Part shown: positions 4,012-60,333 of the stretch, in pieces
Position numbering within the stretch: position 1 is the first letter of the stretch
Layout: each line of letters opens with the position of its first letter
From: a virus
Length of the DNA: 64,000 nucleotides
Strand: one strand, 5' to 3'
IMG/VR virus record: IMGVR_UViG_3300021963_005763
Coordinates: 39,954 to 103,953 of that record
Translations under genes and position numbers: made by a program
Notes under the pieces: generated by a model
What the model was told of the DNA's origin: nothing
Seen by the model: the letters and a program-made list of their open reading frames with translations, nothing else
Databases searched by the model: none

Positions 4012-4018
4012 TATTTAC
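4012..4018 (-). promoter_or_regulatory. Late promoter GTAAATA for the baseplate operon
   Basis: The plus strand reads tatttac, so the minus strand reads GTAAATA about 32 bases upstream of the ATG at 3980. It stands back to back with a plus-strand TATAAATA that begins three bases away. T4-type late promoters are this -10 element alone, read by the gp55 sigma factor. Confidence 0.6.
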
Positions 4019-4020
4019 CT

Positions 4021-4028
4021 TATAAATA
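4021..4028 (+). promoter_or_regulatory. Late promoter TATAAATA, divergent from the baseplate promoter
   Basis: A perfect match to the T4 late promoter consensus, 74 bases before the gp55 start. It lies back to back with the minus-strand GTAAATA at 4012-4018. If used, gp55 would also be transcribed late and could feed back on its own synthesis. Confidence 0.55.
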
Positions 4029-4101: not shown

Positions 4102-4995
4102 ATGACTATAATAACAAAAAAGGTAAAATACCTTAACAATCGTGATCTATTAGAAGAAATTCATAAGAGTAAATGTAGTTTTTCATGTTTCAGTAGTAAA
4201 GAATATCAACAACACGACATAATCGTAGCAGATATAAAAAAAATCACAATAAGAACCATAAGCGATGCTAAGAAAAACCGTGCTAAACGAATAGGTTTGA
4301 AAAATTTCGTAGAAGCTAGAAAAAACGGAGATAAAAAAATTAAATTAGCAGACCTTACTCCAGATTATAAAAAAATATTAAAGACCGATCTTGTGTTTAG
4401 AGTAATGACATTCGAACACATACCACTTACTCCGGGTCGAAAAAAAACTACCAAGACTACTTCAGATAATCACGAAAAAGTAAATTTTCCTCCTTTCCAG
4501 CATTGGAAATTTAACGAAGAAAATGAATTGATCTGTGTGGGCAAAAGTCATTGGAAGGGCGGAATAAAGACAGGAAAATTTTCTAAAGAACACGGACGTA
4601 TTACCGAAGAACTAGGCCGTATGTTTATTAAACTTTCCGAACGTTATGCCCAACGTAGTAATTGGCGTGGCTATACCTATATCGACGAAATGCGTGGTCA
4701 GGCCATATTACAACTTAGCCAAATTGGTCTACAGTTCGATGAATCAAAATCAGAAAACCCATTTGCCTACTATACTGCTGCTGTCAATAATTCATTTACT
4801 CGTATTCTTAATATTGAAAAGAAAAATCAGAATATCAGAGATGACATGCTGATTGAAAACGGACTAACGCCTAGCTCAACTAGACAAAATTATCAGGAAT
4901 TCGCAGAAGAAATAGCACGACAGGCTAACTTATATAAAAATACAAGAATGCCAAAAGCAGCAGAAAATATAGAAGATGAAGAGGAGGCGGCTTGA
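4102..4995 (+). CDS. 55: Late-transcription sigma factor gp55
   Basis: A 297-residue homologue of T4 gp55, the small sigma-like protein that directs host RNA polymerase to TATAAATA late promoters. Residues about 185-250 hold the core signature: NWRGYTYIDEMRGQAI, LQFDESKSENPFAYYTAAV, then FTRILNIEKKNQNIRDDM. T4 gp55 is 185 residues. The extra N-terminal 120 residues (KYLNNRDLLEEIHKSK, VFRVMTFEHIPLTPGRKK) are typical of the marine T4-like version. The C-terminus (AENIEDEEEAA) is acidic but lacks obvious hydrophobic residues; in T4 a hydrophobic/acidic tail contacts the gp45 clamp. ATG at 4102 follows AAGGAAG. The many (N)TAAATA elements in the window are its expected targets. Confidence 0.92.
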   Translation: MTIITKKVKYLNNRDLLEEIHKSKCSFSCFSSKEYQQHDIIVADIKKITIRTISDAKKNRAKRIGLKNFVEARKNGDKKIKLADLTPDYKKILKTDLVFRVMTFEHIPLTPGRKKTTKTTSDNHEKVNFPPFQHWKFNEENELICVGKSHWKGGIKTGKFSKEHGRITEELGRMFIKLSERYAQRSNWRGYTYIDEMRGQAILQLSQIGLQFDESKSENPFAYYTAAVNNSFTRILNIEKKNQNIRDDMLIENGLTPSSTRQNYQEFAEEIARQANLYKNTRMPKAAENIEDEEEAA

Positions 4996-44062: not shown

Positions 44063-44712
44063 AAAAGTCAGTTTTTGGAACTACAACATGGAGTAATAAG
44101 AAAGGTAAGCTAGCTGTATGTATTCCAGTGCGAGATACCTTACATAGTGCTCATGCTCTATGTCTAGCTGAAATGGTAAAATTAAACACTCAAAATAATA
44201 TAGATACGCATGTTTTTATGGATGCCAGTACCATATTATTAACGCAACGTGAACACCTAGCCACTGAAGCACTTAATTTAGGGTCAGAATATACTTTATG
44301 GTTAGACAGTGATATTACTTTCCCTAGTAGCATTGCTATGAGATTAATGTCACATAATGAACCTTTGGTAGCATGTAATTACATAAGGCGCCAACTACCG
44401 GCAAAAGGTGTGGCCTATGAAGTTATAGGAGATTGGCAAAACCCACTATCCTTTGACATCGAGGATGAATTAGTTGATGTACAAGGAGTAGGTATGGGTT
44501 GTATGCTTATGAAAACTGAAATTTTAACTAAGATACAAAAACCTTGGTTTGAATTTGGTTGGAGTCCAGACTCTAATGACTTTCTTGGAGAAGATATGCT
44601 GTTTTGTCAAAAGGCTACAAAGGCTGGATACACGGTAAAAATTGATACAGCATTGAGCCACGAATTAAGGCACTTAGGAACCTGGGCGTTTGGTCCTGAT
44701 TTGTTAGATTAA
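44059..44712 (+). CDS. GT-A-fold glycosyltransferase (family 2-like)
   Basis: A 217-residue nucleotide-sugar transferase candidate. The pattern is AVCIPVRDTLHSAHA at the N-terminus, then YTLWLDSDITFPSS with a DxD-type metal-binding motif at 83-85, LVACNYIRRQLP, and a later GEDMLFCQKATKAGY acidic motif, all typical of small phage GT-A enzymes. The likely role is modifying phage DNA, a virion protein or host surface sugar; the substrate cannot be read. No membrane segment. Its stop overlaps the stop of the convergent Nudix gene by nine bases. Confidence 0.78.
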   Translation: MKKSVFGTTTWSNKKGKLAVCIPVRDTLHSAHALCLAEMVKLNTQNNIDTHVFMDASTILLTQREHLATEALNLGSEYTLWLDSDITFPSSIAMRLMSHNEPLVACNYIRRQLPAKGVAYEVIGDWQNPLSFDIEDELVDVQGVGMGCMLMKTEILTKIQKPWFEFGWSPDSNDFLGEDMLFCQKATKAGYTVKIDTALSHELRHLGTWAFGPDLLD

Positions 44713-45144
44713 TTCTAATATAAGTTCTAACTTTGCCTTAATAATTTTATTATTGAAACTGTTCTTAACACCTTGATGTAATGGTCTAGGCCATTGTGAA
44801 TAATTACACCAAGCATAACCAGCATGTTCTAAATTTAGTCTAGGTATAAATTCGTTTTCAATAACCAAAACATAGGTATTATATTGAAATTTTTGGTCGT
44901 AACTGACAAATAACTCTAGAGGAATAGTTTTGATTATATCAGGAATATCTCCAATCTCTTCCTCGATTTCTCTCTTTAGAGTGTCGTAGGCTGTATTATC
45001 ATTGGGTTCTTTTTTGCCACCTACAAATCCCCACTGACCTGCCGTTTTGCCCTGCGTCCTCAGTAAAAATAAAAATCTTTGAGTTTCTTTAGATAAAAAT
45101 AAACCACCACTACATATAATTTGATTTAGAGAACTAGGCGCCAT
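44704..45144 (-). CDS. Nudix hydrolase
   Basis: A 146-residue protein. The Nudix box is recognisable as GGKKEPNDN-x7-REIEEEIGD (residues 42-66), with the metal-binding REUxEE core intact. The upstream Glu of the canonical GX5EX7REUXEEXGU box is not conserved (Asp49/Asn50 with one extra residue). The fold is complete: FLFLLRTQGKTAGQWGFVGG before the box, and LNLEHAGYAWCNYSQWPRPL after it. It would cleave a nucleoside diphosphate linked to another group; the substrate is unknown. Its start overlaps the end of the gp15-like gene by 19 bases. Confidence 0.85.
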   Translation of the reverse strand: MAPSSLNQIICSGGLFLSKETQRFLFLLRTQGKTAGQWGFVGGKKEPNDNTAYDTLKREIEEEIGDIPDIIKTIPLELFVSYDQKFQYNTYVLVIENEFIPRLNLEHAGYAWCNYSQWPRPLHQGVKNSFNNKIIKAKLELILELI

Positions 45145-46523
45145 AACTTGCTATCGTATACTCCTTCAAAGGTCTTACTCCAATCGCCATTGTTATATTG
45201 ATATTGCGTGCCTGTGAAAGAATTAGTAACATATATTACACTAGAAGAAGCACTAGAGTCAAATATTAAGGACCATGAGGAACCATTCCATTCTATTATA
45301 TCATTGGCGCTTGCACGAAAATCTGTTAGATTAGAATTTTTCCATGCTACTGGACCATCATAACCTACAGAGCCAAACTGTGCGTTATCGTTGATGCCTT
45401 CTAGGATTAAGAATCTAGTACCTGCTGTTAATCCACTTGGATTGTAGGTCAATGGATTAACTATAGCATCTATTGTTCCTCTACCCGATAAAATAGTATT
45501 TGTGGGTATGGTATCAGTGTCAACATTCAATACCATGGCAAAATCATCTGTGGGATTTAGGCTTATATAGGCAATAATCTCAGTACCACCTTCTTGACTA
45601 AATCGTAGAGTGCTTATACCCGCACGAAATTTGCCAGGATATAGATTTAACAATGCGTGCCATGATACACTGTTTCTAGGATCTGTAAGATCTATTTGAT
45701 CGCCTACTGTGCCGTCTAAAATTAACCTTGCAGACCCATTCAATACTAGCAATTTGTAGTTGCCAGGTGTAACTATAATATCTGTATCTGGACTTATACC
45801 ATCGAAAACATTGCTAGCGCCTGAAATATTATAACTTGTTTGAATTGTGCCCTGTGCTCCAGAGCCAAATATGTTGTTTATAATCTTAGTTACTACCCCT
45901 AATTTCTTTACCTTAGCAGGTGGAGTAATCCAAATTGGAGCACTAAAAGTTAGAGTAAGTATATCTATATCTTCTGCCACACCCTGCGGGATGGTTCTTG
46001 ATGTAAATGTCTGACTGTCTAGGTGTAAAACACTCAGACTGGTCCAATCGATGTAGTTGTCGGTGGTCTGTATTTCAAAACTCGGGTTAAAAAATACAAC
46101 TATTTGTTCCCAAATTTGTAATTTTTGATCTACACTAGTAGACCATATATCTGCATTCATGGTTAAAGTATATGGACTTGGCATTATACGTTCTACTGTA
46201 TAATTTGATCCCTGCGTGTTTATATAATCTCCCTGAGCATTTACATCACGTTCTCTGATATTAATCTTGCTGATAAATGTGGGATCTTGTAGCCTAGGCC
46301 TGTCATATTGAATATCTTTTATGTAGCAGGCAATAAACGGCGCACTAGGCATGGTATTTTCACTGTTTTTCTTAAGAATTTGTGCTACCTGTCTACTCAT
46401 GTCTCCATATCGTACAGGAATTTGTACTATATTACCTCTGCCATCTTTATAGGCAAAGTTGCTCATAACATTCATAAATTGGCTGACAAATCGTCTTACT
46501 TGGCCGTCATAAAAATAATCCAT
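45126..46523 (-). CDS. 15: Tail sheath stabiliser/completion protein gp15-like
   Basis: A 465-residue protein. Its first 230 residues follow T4 gp15 closely in pattern: DYFYDGQVRRFVSQFMNVMS at the start, IQIPVRYGDMSRQ, then a NYTVERIMPSPYTLTMNADI segment and LQIWEQIVVFFNPSFEIQ. In T4, gp15 caps the finished tail and binds the neck. T4 gp15 is 272 residues; the extra 200 residues here include a beta domain (DTDIIVTPGNYKLLVLNGSA) and a WNGSSWSLIF / YQYNNGDWSKTF ending like those on fibre tips. Gene order gp14-gp15 on the minus strand, one base apart. Confidence 0.85.
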   Translation of the reverse strand: MDYFYDGQVRRFVSQFMNVMSNFAYKDGRGNIVQIPVRYGDMSRQVAQILKKNSENTMPSAPFIACYIKDIQYDRPRLQDPTFISKINIRERDVNAQGDYINTQGSNYTVERIMPSPYTLTMNADIWSTSVDQKLQIWEQIVVFFNPSFEIQTTDNYIDWTSLSVLHLDSQTFTSRTIPQGVAEDIDILTLTFSAPIWITPPAKVKKLGVVTKIINNIFGSGAQGTIQTSYNISGASNVFDGISPDTDIIVTPGNYKLLVLNGSARLILDGTVGDQIDLTDPRNSVSWHALLNLYPGKFRAGISTLRFSQEGGTEIIAYISLNPTDDFAMVLNVDTDTIPTNTILSGRGTIDAIVNPLTYNPSGLTAGTRFLILEGINDNAQFGSVGYDGPVAWKNSNLTDFRASANDIIEWNGSSWSLIFDSSASSSVIYVTNSFTGTQYQYNNGDWSKTFEGVYDSKLWRLVL

Positions 46524-46524
46524 A

Positions 46525-47712
46525 TTATAAATCTGCCCTTGGTTTTAGTGCTTTGCTTAGTGCCTGACGTTCTTGAACAATCTCGCCTGCTACAGTGGCA
46601 GTGTTTATATTATTGACAAAAGTGGCTTTGAGTTTTTGTCTTACCAAATTACTGTCATTTGTCTGTGTGGGTCCTAAAGTACTGACGGTCATACGAACAT
46701 TATCCTCAAATCTTGTCCAAACAGTGCCGCTATATCTATACAATCTATTAGGAAGATAGTCGGTTCTTAGAAAAAATTGACCTTGTACAGGGCTACTTGG
46801 GAACACAATACCAAATCCATAAGGGGCACCATCTGGCGGAACTCCATCACCTGTAAGATATCCTATGTAATAATTCTGTGAAGGTGTTTCTAAAGTGGCC
46901 GCAGCATTAATAACGGTTGAACTGGCATCTAAATCGGTGTCGCTAACATCTGCTGTGTCTACAAGATTACGTGTATTTTTTGGTATGATAAAAAATTGTC
47001 TAGTTTCATAACCACTTTTTGGAACATCTTCTTCTGCTTGTAGAATAACCTGCTCATTGATTTCGATACTACGATTATATTCACTTAATAAATCTCTCAA
47101 ACTCGTGCCATCGTCTGCTCCGGCATCTTGATCCAGTATCTGACTGAATTCTTGGCGATCAACCAATGGTTGACATTTGGCTCTAATTAAATGAGGATAC
47201 CAAGTTTGACTGTAACCGCTAGCAGGTCTTGTCACTTCACTGACTACATAAAACCTTTTTAACGCAACTAGGTTATCATCTAGTGCGTACTCATCTTTTT
47301 GATGTGGTAATTCTAATACATCACCTGCCATGATTTTTCTTCCAAGAGCATCATAACTGCTTCTAAGATGAAAAGTGATCATTATATTATCGTTTTGTAG
47401 AAACAGACCAAATTGACTGAGATTGAAATCAACATCCTGTAAAGTATAAATGCCTCTTACTACATAGACATCTTCGTCATATTTTCTATCTCTATTTTCT
47501 AAAAACAATAGATCTTGTATACCTAATTCTGGTATGGCGTTAGATTGATTAGGTTGACTTGGTGTACTTTCGCCTGCGTCAGGTTCAACAGGTCCTACAT
47601 ACTTATGTATGAAAATATCAGTACCGCCGACTTGAAATTGTTCATTAATCGCACGGTCTAGAAAACGAAAATCCTTACCCTTTTCTGGGCGGTACAGGGA
47701 AAGTCTAGGCAT
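46525..47712 (-). CDS. 14: Neck protein gp14
   Basis: A 395-residue protein starting MPRLSLYRPEKGKDFRFLDR, a start I associate with marine T4-like gp14. Supporting stretches are VGGTDIFIHKYVGP, IQDLLFLENRDRKYDEDVY, DFNLSQFGLFLQNDNIMITF and LGRKIMAGDVLELPHQKDEY. In T4, gp13 and gp14 form the neck that joins head and tail. T4 gp14 is 256 residues. I start it at 47712; the frame is open further upstream, but that part overlaps the divergent gp13 gene and its promoter. CATAAATA lies seven bases before the ATG and there is no Shine-Dalgarno. Confidence 0.85.
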   Translation of the reverse strand: MPRLSLYRPEKGKDFRFLDRAINEQFQVGGTDIFIHKYVGPVEPDAGESTPSQPNQSNAIPELGIQDLLFLENRDRKYDEDVYVVRGIYTLQDVDFNLSQFGLFLQNDNIMITFHLRSSYDALGRKIMAGDVLELPHQKDEYALDDNLVALKRFYVVSEVTRPASGYSQTWYPHLIRAKCQPLVDRQEFSQILDQDAGADDGTSLRDLLSEYNRSIEINEQVILQAEEDVPKSGYETRQFFIIPKNTRNLVDTADVSDTDLDASSTVINAAATLETPSQNYYIGYLTGDGVPPDGAPYGFGIVFPSSPVQGQFFLRTDYLPNRLYRYSGTVWTRFEDNVRMTVSTLGPTQTNDSNLVRQKLKATFVNNINTATVAGEIVQERQALSKALKPRADL

Positions 47713-47719
47713 AGTCGTA

Positions 47720-47734
47720 TATTTATGGTAAATA
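47720..47734. promoter_or_regulatory. Bidirectional late promoter shared by gp14 and gp13
   Basis: The plus strand reads TATTTA-TGG-TAAATA. The minus-strand element CATAAATA (47727-47720) serves gp14 at 47712; the plus-strand GGTAAATA (47727-47734) serves gp13 at 47740. The two 8-mers share one base pair. Only 27 bases separate the two start codons. Confidence 0.65.
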
Positions 47735-47739
47735 GCAGT

Positions 47740-48498
47740 ATGAATGAAAATGACCAAGAGCGCCAAAAAGTCATAGATTACTGCCAAACAATGTTGGGTG
47801 GTTCTATGATAGATGTTGAATTAGATCCTAAAGACTATAATGTTGCCATAGATAGAGCTTTGGCTAAATTTAGACAAAGAAGCAGCAACGCTACCGAAGA
47901 AAGTTTTGCCTTTTTAACTGTTATAGTTGATCAAAATGAATATACATTGCCTGGTGAAATAGAAAATGTAAGGCAAATATTTCGTAGAAGCATAGGGTCC
48001 AGATCAGGTGGAGGTCAGGGTGGTACTCTTTTCGAACCATTTAATCTAGCATATTCTAATACCTACCTACTTGCTGCTACCAACATGGGCGGTCTAGCCA
48101 CTTATTATGCTTTTGCCAGCTATCAAAAACAGGTAGGTAAAATGTTTGGTAGTGAAATTAATTTTACATTCAATCGCACTTCTAAAAAATTAACCCTAAT
48201 GCAAAGACCTAGAAGTGAAGAAGAAGTTTTGTTATGGGTTTATAATTACCGTCCTGATTTTAATCTATTACAGGATAATTTTGCCAAACAATGGTTGAGA
48301 GATTATAGTCTAGCAACTTGTAAAATCATGTTAGGTGAAGCTCGTGAAAAATTCGCACAAATAGCCAGTCCACAAGGGGGAACCAGTCTAAATGGAACTG
48401 CCCTAAAGGGTGAAGGCAAGGCGGATATGGAAGTTTTGGAACAAGATCTGATCAATTATAAGGACGGCGGCACACCACTTACATTTGTCATTGGATAA
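47740..48498 (+). CDS. 13: Neck protein gp13
   Basis: A 252-residue protein matching T4-type gp13: VIDYCQTMLGGSMIDVELDP, IDRALAKFRQRSSNATEESF, QNEYTLPGEIENVRQIFRR, and LWVYNYRPDFNLLQDNFAKQ near the end. T4 gp13 is 309 residues; with gp14 it seals the filled head and binds the tail. ATG 47740 is chosen because it follows GGTAAATA by exactly five bases; an upstream in-frame ATG at 47725 lies inside the promoter itself. Divergent from gp14. Confidence 0.88.
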   Translation: MNENDQERQKVIDYCQTMLGGSMIDVELDPKDYNVAIDRALAKFRQRSSNATEESFAFLTVIVDQNEYTLPGEIENVRQIFRRSIGSRSGGGQGGTLFEPFNLAYSNTYLLAATNMGGLATYYAFASYQKQVGKMFGSEINFTFNRTSKKLTLMQRPRSEEEVLLWVYNYRPDFNLLQDNFAKQWLRDYSLATCKIMLGEAREKFAQIASPQGGTSLNGTALKGEGKADMEVLEQDLINYKDGGTPLTFVIG

Positions 48499-48510: not shown

Positions 48511-51510
48511 ATGCCATCATTAGATCTAGGCAGCGGCCAATTTGACGCAAATTTATCAATAAATATGATTCCCTTATTTGGGGTAACTAACTCAGCTACA
48601 GCAATAAACGAAGGTAGTTCTCTACTTGTAACAATTACTTCAGAACTGGTACCTGATTCTACGACGCTTTATTGGAGCGTAAGTAGACCAGAAGATTTTT
48701 CAACAGGATCTGGATCTGTAGTGGTAATTGGTAACACTGCCAGTTTTACGCTGACTGCTACTAATGATTTTACCACAGAAGGTGATGAAGTTGTATATGT
48801 CTATATTAGAACAGGCAGTCAATTAGGACCTATTGTTGCTCAATCTCAATTTTTATTGTACGACACCAGTCTAAATCCAACTTATTCAGTTACCAGTTCC
48901 GTTGATTCTATTAATGAAGGTGAAAATGTTTCCTTTACTGTGACAACAACAAATGTACCAAACGGAACCACACTATATTGGACCAATGATGGTACATCGA
49001 CTTCTAGTGATTTTACAGGGTCTCCTGCGCAAAGTGGTAGTTTGGTTATCAACTCAGGGACTGCCAGTTACGGCACCACAGTGGCTATAAATGACGTCAC
49101 CACTGAAGGTGCTGAAACTATAATCTTTAACCTTCGTACAGGTAGCACATCTGGTACTATTGTAGCCAGCAAGACAGTGATTCTTCGTGATACCAGTCAA
49201 GCACCTAGCTACAACATCACTCCATCTGTAACTTCTTTCAATGAATCTGGATCAGTGACCTTTACTGTGGCTACAACAGGTATTGCTAACGGCACAGTTC
49301 TATATTGGACAGCCGCAGGATCAATAAGCGGGACAAATGGAGTTGATGTCAATGTAACAAGTGGATCTGTTACAATTAATAGCAATTTAGCTACATTTGT
49401 TATAAGTGCTGTAGCAGATCTTACCACAGAGGGCAACGAGGTTTTCAATGTAACGCTGAGAAGTGGTAGTACCAGTGGACCAACACTGGCCATAAGTGAT
49501 ACAGTAACCCTATTAGATAGCAGTCTGTCTCCTACATATAGCATAGGTATTCAAGGTGGAAATTACAGTAGAAATGAAGGTACTGATTTTACGCTAGAAA
49601 TAAACACTACTGGTGTTGCCAACGGAACACAGTTATATGTTACGTTTTCTGGCACAATAGTGGCAGATGATATCGTTGGGGGACTAGATAGATTCCTTAC
49701 AATAAATTCTAATTATAGTAACCAATTAGTGAGTATCGTAGGTGATTTAACTACTGAAGGATCAGAAACATTTGTCATGCAGGTTAGAACAGGTAGCACT
49801 GTTGGTCCTATCGTAGCTACATCACCTCTTGTTACGATTAACGATACCAGTCTAAGTATCAGTGTAAATTGGGCTAATTTAAGCGTTAACGAAAATGCCA
49901 ATATGGCAGGAACAGTGACAACTACAGGTCTAGCCAATGGTACTACTCTTTATTGGACTATAAATCATATTACAACAAATGCATCTGATTTTATTGCTGA
50001 GACGGGCTCATTTACTATCAATAGTAACCAAGGTACTGTTAATATTTTCCATTTGGCAGACTTTACCACTGAGGGTAATGAAACATACACAGTCAGTATA
50101 CGAACAAACAGTGTTACAGGTCCAGTCAAGTATACCAGTCCTACGCTCACTATTGTGGATAGCAGTAAAACTCAATCAGTATCTATTACACCCAGTACTA
50201 CTACTCCAACTGAAGGTACTACGGTTACTTTTAACGTCACAGGTACCAATATAGATGATAACACTACTTTATATTGGAGTAATATAGGTACAACTACTTC
50301 GGCTGATTTTACACAGGCCAATAATGATGGATCTTTTCTTTATTTTAACCCAAATATTGTAGGCGTATCACGTACCTTGGTAAACGACCTAACCACTGAG
50401 GGCCTAGAAACTATCATCATCAGGGTATGGAGAGGTGGAGTAGGTTTCTTTTTATTAGGACAAGCTGTTCAAGTTAATGTAAGTGACACTAGCCAAACTC
50501 CTGCCATTACTGTACAGTGGCTGGGTGGTGCAGGGGGTGGTGGTGGAGGTGGTTCAGGATGTGGAGGTGGAGGTGGTGGTGGTGAATTCTATGTAAGTAG
50601 CTTTAGTGCTCAAGTAGGTTCAAACTATAATATAACAGTAGGTTCTGGTGGTCAAGGTGGAGGCATTCCAGCCGGCGGCGACGTAGGTGGTGCACAAGCC
50701 ATAGGGCAAAACGGACAAAATACTCAAATAGCAGGCCTAGCACTTTTCGGTGGAGGCGGAGGCGGTTCAGGATACACAACTTATAGGCCCACCGCCAGTG
50801 CAGCAAGACAAGTTGGTAGAAGCACTTTATGGGGCAGAGATGGTAATGGTGCTCCTGCCTACACCGGCGGTGGAGGTGGTGGTATGAGTCCTGCTGTGTT
50901 CAGTAAAGGCGGCGTAGGGCAGGCACCACTCGGTCTTTTCGGTGGCTTTGGAAGAGGAATACCTAGTTTTGTTAATAGAATGGGAGGAGGAGGTGCGGGC
51001 GTATTAGGCAACGGACAATCCGGGGTAAATCCTGCTCCTTATATATCTACTCTATTAAGGGGAGGTAATGGAGGGGGTGGAAGAACAGTTAGTAGTATAT
51101 ACGCACCCGCTAGCAACCCAATAGAAGGTGGAGGTGGTGGAGGTGGTGGAACTTTTGCTGTTCCCTTATATTCTAATAGAGCAGGAACAGGTGGTACAGG
51201 CTTGGCTCAAGGAGGAACAGGAGCCGGGCCTGGAATAGGAAATGGAGGCAATGCCCAATTCTCTGTATCTACAGGAGGTGGGGGTAGCGGAGGCGATGGA
51301 CCAAGCTCACCATTCCCAAGTAATCCTGCATGGCTAACTGCGGGTGGAGCAGGCAGCGCAGGAACAGTTATCATTAAATATCCGAGCTCAGCAAACACTG
51401 TTCAATTTACAGGCCTAAGCGTGTTTGGTCAAAACCCTGACACAACATCTAGCCCTGGTTTTAAAATTCATAGAATTGCTCCTGGTTCTGGTACAATTAG
51501 ATTTCCATAA
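48511..51510 (+). CDS. Adhesin-like fibre: six Calx-beta-type repeats plus Gly-rich tip
   Basis: A 999-residue protein in two parts. Residues about 25-665 are six tandem repeats of about 105 residues with the pattern S-[IF]-NEG-x-[SN]-[VL]-x-F-x-V, NGTTLYW, [FLV]TTEG-x-ET and a closing DTS/DSS, typical of Calx-beta-like modules in adhesins. Residues about 670-960 are extremely Gly-rich (blocks of six to eight Gly, such as GGAGGGGGGGSGCGGGGG), like the polyglycine sandwich tips of phage adhesins such as T-even gp38. A short end (GFKIHRIAPGSGTIRF) follows. It lies right after gp13. Receptor binding is inferred. Confidence 0.72.
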   Translation: MPSLDLGSGQFDANLSINMIPLFGVTNSATAINEGSSLLVTITSELVPDSTTLYWSVSRPEDFSTGSGSVVVIGNTASFTLTATNDFTTEGDEVVYVYIRTGSQLGPIVAQSQFLLYDTSLNPTYSVTSSVDSINEGENVSFTVTTTNVPNGTTLYWTNDGTSTSSDFTGSPAQSGSLVINSGTASYGTTVAINDVTTEGAETIIFNLRTGSTSGTIVASKTVILRDTSQAPSYNITPSVTSFNESGSVTFTVATTGIANGTVLYWTAAGSISGTNGVDVNVTSGSVTINSNLATFVISAVADLTTEGNEVFNVTLRSGSTSGPTLAISDTVTLLDSSLSPTYSIGIQGGNYSRNEGTDFTLEINTTGVANGTQLYVTFSGTIVADDIVGGLDRFLTINSNYSNQLVSIVGDLTTEGSETFVMQVRTGSTVGPIVATSPLVTINDTSLSISVNWANLSVNENANMAGTVTTTGLANGTTLYWTINHITTNASDFIAETGSFTINSNQGTVNIFHLADFTTEGNETYTVSIRTNSVTGPVKYTSPTLTIVDSSKTQSVSITPSTTTPTEGTTVTFNVTGTNIDDNTTLYWSNIGTTTSADFTQANNDGSFLYFNPNIVGVSRTLVNDLTTEGLETIIIRVWRGGVGFFLLGQAVQVNVSDTSQTPAITVQWLGGAGGGGGGGSGCGGGGGGGEFYVSSFSAQVGSNYNITVGSGGQGGGIPAGGDVGGAQAIGQNGQNTQIAGLALFGGGGGGSGYTTYRPTASAARQVGRSTLWGRDGNGAPAYTGGGGGGMSPAVFSKGGVGQAPLGLFGGFGRGIPSFVNRMGGGGAGVLGNGQSGVNPAPYISTLLRGGNGGGGRTVSSIYAPASNPIEGGGGGGGGTFAVPLYSNRAGTGGTGLAQGGTGAGPGIGNGGNAQFSVSTGGGGSGGDGPSSPFPSNPAWLTAGGAGSAGTVIIKYPSSANTVQFTGLSVFGQNPDTTSSPGFKIHRIAPGSGTIRFP

Positions 51511-52583: not shown

Positions 52584-52591
52584 CATAAATA
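52584..52591 (+). promoter_or_regulatory. Late promoter CATAAATA for the sheath gene
   Basis: Located 31 bases before ATG 52623; the leader carries TTTAGGAGA as Shine-Dalgarno, the leadered type of late gene. Confidence 0.6.
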
Positions 52592-52622
52592 TATCAAAGT
52601 AATCCATTTAGGAGATTGAATA

Positions 52623-60320: not shown

Positions 60321-60328
60321 AGTAAATA
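60321..60328 (+). promoter_or_regulatory. Late promoter AGTAAATA exactly five bases before gp17 ATG
   Basis: TAAATA 60323-60328, spacer attat, ATG 60334. No Shine-Dalgarno; the T tract of the terminator lies directly upstream. Confidence 0.65.
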
Positions 60329-60333
60329 ATTAT

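Follow-up and report, generated by a model that had tools for sequence, protein, structure and literature searches.

A probable pair of back-to-back T4-type late promoters fused to divergent neck genes in an uncultured giant phage

Introduction

Phage T4 carries, at its gene 26/51 pair, two inverted late-promoter elements compressed into 12 bp (TATTTATAAATA, NC_000866 116450-116461), where two perfect consensus 8-mers share 4 bp. Late promoters of T4 occupy positions -13 to -6 (PMC1524935). Among bacterial promoters, bidirectional promoters of the sigma70 type have a shared -10 element, and their starts are commonly 10, 18 or 23 bp apart. Leaderless phage mRNAs are known chiefly as isolated cases, such as lambda cI.

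Here we describe the junction of two divergent genes in a 104-kb viral record (G000), of which a stretch of 64,000 nucleotides, hereafter the window, was analyzed. We consider it very probable that 15 bp of this junction represent two late promoters of the gp55 type (T4), lying back to back and each fused to its own gene. Back-to-back geometry already has precedents at the sequence level; what is new here is that the promoters are fused to the start codons. No report of leaderless T4-type late genes was found in the literature searched, which left out most subscription papers. The record had no DNA match in the phage collection at the 'near' setting, and the closest cultured phages in gp13 (PA5oct, Atu_ph07 and the RaK2 group) reach at most about 47 percent identity.

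Two inverted late-promoter cores between divergent genes

The intergenic region is 27 bases long and is bounded by the start codons ATG 47740 on the plus strand and ATG 47712-47710 on the minus strand. Read directly from the window, positions 47710-47742 consist of CAT, AGTCGTA, TATTTA, TGG, TAAATA, GCAGT and ATG, in that order. Between the divergent start codons lie the 15 bp TATTTATGGTAAATA (47720-47734), made up of TATTTA (47720-47725), TGG and TAAATA (47729-47734), with sequence and coordinates as claimed in an earlier sequence-only reading of this DNA. The gp14-side element CATAAATA occupies 47720..47727 on the minus strand (core TAAATA 47725-47720) and the gp13 element GGTAAATA occupies 47727..47734 on the plus strand (core TAAATA 47729-47734). 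The two 8-mers have base pair 47727 in common, so that the one-base-pair overlap described by that reading is real. The plus 8-mer agrees with T4 TATAAATA in its last six bases only, as its -13/-12 positions are GG and off consensus. For the pattern TATTTA-N0-15-TAAATA the window has two hits where 0.63 would be expected, a number that alone is not beyond chance. We accept the junction pattern as real because it is kept in relatives, not from window statistics.

The plus-strand gene (47740..48498) encodes a gp13-like neck protein of 252 aa (head-tail adaptor Ad2), predicted to be leaderless, which matches PHROG 211 (E 2e-34) and T4 gp13 chains in the PDB (E 2.6e-5). The first minus-strand gene (46525..47712) encodes a neck-region virion structural protein of 395 aa. 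This is probably gp14, judging from its position adjoining gp15 and from its match to PHROG 11591, a family of virion structural proteins; profile search returned no PDB match for it, and its fold model was too poor to use (pLDDT 37). The gene names given by the sequence-only reading hold for gp13, and for gp14 as a probable assignment by position and family. The second gene behind the minus promoter (45126..46523, minus strand) encodes a gp15-like tail sheath stabiliser (Pfam PF16724, E 5e-24). Directly after gp13, at 48511-51510, the window encodes a protein of 999 aa whose acidic TEGxE segments are repeated and whose tail is rich in glycine; it belongs to PHROG 2295 of unknown function.

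Spacing to the start codons among relatives

Relatives were picked by similarity and are themselves interrelated. The gp13 set comprised 80 related contigs, of which L066 is truncated, and the junction was read with free spacing of 0-34; a gp14-selected set comprised 80 loci. TAAATA lies exactly 5 bases 5' of the gp13 ATG in 78/80 sequences, namely 77 of the 78 that carry both elements plus L040; L080, left unscored by the script, has the same spacing when viewed. The sole clear exception, L024, has a gp13 spacing of 16 and has gained a strong Shine-Dalgarno (SD) sequence, AAAGGAG. On the minus strand, TAAATA-N7-ATG predominates, and spacings of 6-7 with ATG were found in 79/80 loci of the gp14-selected set. 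The remaining locus (L401) has a spacing of 20, an SD-like site and an ATT start.

The core TAAATA is invariant in 68 distinct relatives on the plus side and in 77 on the gp14 side, an invariance that follows from row selection on both sides, so that the real test lies in the spacing and the free columns. In these columns, the base before the gp13 AUG is a pyrimidine (T or C) in 68/68. On the gp14 side, an A stands just before the core in 59/77, and the leader has an invariant A (77/77) five bases after the core, equivalent to 47715, followed mostly by CT.

Seven relatives of the gp13 set have long gp14 leaders, all with an SD-like site, and six of them start with ATT. Counting both sets, short spacing is lost at the gp14 side in eight sequences (seven from the gp13 set and one from the gp14 set), with ATT in 7/8, while short-spaced gp14-side genes start with ATG in 59/59 (gp13 set) and 79/79 (gp14 set). 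The ATT starts are those of L006, L013, L024, L030, L041, L046 and L401; L033 has ATG despite a leader with an SD-like site. ATT starts have like surroundings (AGGAGA..AAAATTCC) and, because of this similarity, some of the seven or more gains of ATT on the tree may be due to recombination of a single cassette. Such rare AUU starts may reflect initiation-factor control. Close relatives that switch the same gene between a leaderless AUG and an AUU with an SD would constitute a natural experiment.

Predicted transcript starts and translation mode

Because T4 elements span -13 to -6, TAAATA-N5-ATG places the predicted +1 on the A of the gp13 AUG (47740). The predicted 5' leader of the gp14 mRNA is ACU (47713..47715, minus strand), starting at A 47715, or at C 47714 by the strict T4 offset. 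With the offset borrowed from T4 and the base signature taken together, the gp13 mRNA should start at its AUG and the gp14 mRNA about three bases before its own. Given that the short spacing of the junction genes leaves no room for an SD, we infer leaderless translation of gp13 and near-leaderless translation of gp14. The sequence-only reading had predicted the same, and its prediction gains support from the invariant spacing, the base signature and the absence of an SD.

In the mechanism that we propose, polymerase with the phage gp55-like sigma would bind TAAATA in one orientation, transcription would begin about 5-6 bases past the core, at A 47740 for gp13 or at A 47715 for the gp14 side, and ribosomes would initiate at the 5'-terminal or near-terminal AUG without an SD. 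That the elements touch would follow from the compactness of a divergent junction holding two fused promoters, and was probably not selected for in itself.

A class of late genes with the fused layout

TAAATA was found before the late structural genes for portal, terminase, tail tube, sheath, gp13 and the gp14 side. An ATG-led frame of at least 60 codons follows the hexamer at a distance of 4-7 bases at 12/79 sites in G000 (p 3e-8) and at 23/110 sites in a 207-kb relative, G001 (p 5e-17), with permuted hexamers as the control (45/2730 and 60/3523, respectively). The same test in T4 gave 3/225 sites (p 0.7), and the fused layout is not seen there. Similarly, TAAATA-N5-ATG exceeded its reversed control in G000 (10:2), G001 (10:2) and G002 (11:2), and the excess was weak or none in T4 (10:5) and in eight jumbo relatives.

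Candidate fused layouts in the window precede the genes for portal (spacing 4), tail tube, an internal-head-like protein, terminase and a structural protein (spacing 6). The second fused example is the terminase, where TAAATA-N5 (60323..60333, plus strand) stands directly before ATG 60334. Its orthologues have a spacing of 4-8 in 77/77, 72 of these with a spacing of 5, and a pyrimidine before the AUG in 50/50. The tail sheath belongs to a contrasting, leadered class, with TAAATA-N31-ATG and an SD at 52586..52622 (plus strand); a spacing of 31 with an SD-like site recurs in 25 of the 39 sheath orthologues scored. The portal was rejected as a fixed leaderless gene, since its spacing of 4 is found only in the 4 nearest relatives of 78. 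In many relatives (among L115-L194), a terminator-like hairpin with a T run lies directly against the fused late promoter ahead of the terminase gene.

The strict motif TATAAATA was rejected, with 3 occurrences in the window against 8.9 expected, and TAAATA served as the working core. TAAATA itself occurs 49 times in the window against 72-158 for permuted hexamers. Both are scarce as if stray late promoters had been removed.

Judged from sequence, the fused layout, which is conserved throughout a large group of uncultured giant phages, is the mark of a genome-wide class of late genes in this clade. A wider proposal is that an uncultured jumbo-phage clade has fused the late promoter to the AUG of fixed head, neck and packaging genes for SD-independent late translation, with the sheath and others keeping SD leaders; we put it forward tentatively and think it rather less than likely. 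If true, leaderless and leadered late genes would coexist under one promoter type, and one could ask whether the phage assigns translation modes to genes. Gene callers may misplace starts here, for example at ATG 47725.

Late transcription machinery

The window encodes a homologue of the gp55-type late sigma factor (297 aa, 4102..4995, plus strand; PHROG 234, E 1.4e-26, match at G000 44502-44930), also present in four relatives (G001, G002, G003 and G005), and this homologue presumably reads both junction elements. Together with conservation in relatives, the gene backs the view of the sequence-only reading that the junction holds two inverted late elements. The gp45 clamp profiles (PF02916, PF09116) had no match in the incomplete records G000-G005 or in the complete Atu_ph07, and they did match the T4 control; possibly the clamp has diverged beyond these profiles. 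PHROG 223 (gp45) matched nowhere, hence is uninformative, and a bacterial-type clamp was not found either. As gp45 was not found, the activation step may differ from that of T4. The authors of the CBB study report gp55 without gp33 and gp45 (PMC5259590). In T4, the orientation of the clamp on DNA sets which promoter polarity gets activated (PMC2988020) and we speculate, by analogy, that the orientation of a T4-like clamp, if one is used here, would pick which neck gene is read.

Further element pairs were also seen. A back-to-back late pair, TATTTACCTTATAAATA, lies at 4012-4028 of the window, 73 bases 5' of the ATG of the gp55-like sigma gene, and feedback of the late sigma on its own gene is possible. 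Late elements that face each other at a distance of about 30 bases are located at 130547/130579 in G001 (L110) and at 12412/12444 in the window (G000 about 52366/52398); their transcripts would overlap at the 5' ends.

Alternative explanations

The sequence-only reading knew of no described T4 late promoter pair as tight as this one, but tightness was rejected as a novelty: the T4 26/51 pair is tighter, and so are relatives with gaps of 0 (L063) to 2 (seven others). It had also proposed mutually exclusive firing of the two promoters. That the overlap is a selected device of this kind, giving balanced, alternating bursts of gp13 and gp14/gp15, seems unlikely to us. Exclusion of polymerases is physically expected, since two cannot start 25 bp apart simultaneously and the predicted starts lie 25-26 bp apart; the gap between the cores is 6 or less in 57 of the 78 relatives with both elements and 3-5 in 72/80 of the gp14-selected set. 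However, compactness alone yields short gaps. The gap, which is 3 in the window, has a mode of 4 and ranges from 0 to 36. On the gp13 tree, of which only 33/69 inner branches are well supported, the gap underwent at least 33 changes and the gp13 promoter-to-ATG spacing a single one. The palindrome is conserved in its cores and ATG spacings and not in the gap between them. Because the gap changes often and the ATG spacing does not, the overlap looks incidental and the fused promoter appears to be what is conserved. At 194169-194185, G001 has a further back-to-back pair in which the spacing is short in both directions. The weight of exclusion depends on the firing rate, and the tested E. coli bidirectional promoters show competition only under strong activation of one direction, which also speaks against a selected device (PMC12825309). 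Steric exclusion at the gp13/gp14 junction is nonetheless plausible, its role in regulation being hypothetical.

Boxes resembling TANNNT are known 5-7 bases before the AUG of leaderless bacterial genes, and the elements could be host-type -10 boxes for the housekeeping sigma of a leaderless-rich host, a view to which both these boxes and the failure to find gp45 lend some weight; but the conserved core is the late TAAATA and not simply any TANNNT, it marks structural genes, and a gp55 homologue is encoded, so we regard this as improbable. Even less probable is a single functional TAAATA core, the other being kept by chance or for another cause. The plus element of the window, off consensus at -13/-12, would fit that explanation, yet both cores are invariant in distinct relatives, each at a fixed distance from its own ATG. 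Finally, the frame of gp13 is open from ATG 47725 in the window, and translation from this codon, within the promoter, would mean that gp13 is not leaderless, an outcome that the sequence-only reading had itself named as contrary to its proposal. Of 78 sequences, only 5 have ATG at this codon and 21 have a stop there (TAG or TAA); we rejected this start and give the idea hardly any credence. Two late promoters, each fused to its own gene, are the reading that we retain.

Comparison with known systems

Like the T4 26/51 pair, the junction has inverted gp55-type elements that would serve divergent genes of one substructure, which in T4 is the baseplate hub; unlike the junction genes, T4 26 and 51 both have leaders with an SD. 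More generally, the core TAAATA, the structural genes and the gp55 homologue are as in T4-type late promoters (gp55/gp33/gp45; CTAAATA in Aeh1 and ATAAATA in CBB), and -13/-12 vary among relatives of the window, as reported for Aeh1 and others. The difference lies in the distance to the gene: T4 TATAAATA elements are separated from the ATG by at least 13 bases, about 28 being common, and an SD is present, whereas here the distance is 4-8 bases, without room for one. The gp13 junction of Atu_ph07 is also divergent, with TATTTACCGTTAAATA, but both of its genes have leaders with SD-like sites.

As in bacterial bidirectional promoters (Warman et al. 2021; PMC12825309), a short pseudo-symmetric stretch would drive both directions, and binding of one polymerase should block the other. 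The sigma70 type is defined by its shared -10 element, and the gp13/gp14 junction falls outside it, having two late elements that share one base pair and predicted starts at a wider distance. Lastly, the predicted transcripts resemble leaderless mRNAs such as lambda cI in having the AUG at or near the 5' end, without an SD. Unlike lambda cI, they would come from an entire class of late structural genes that is conserved among these phages, as inferred from DNA alone.
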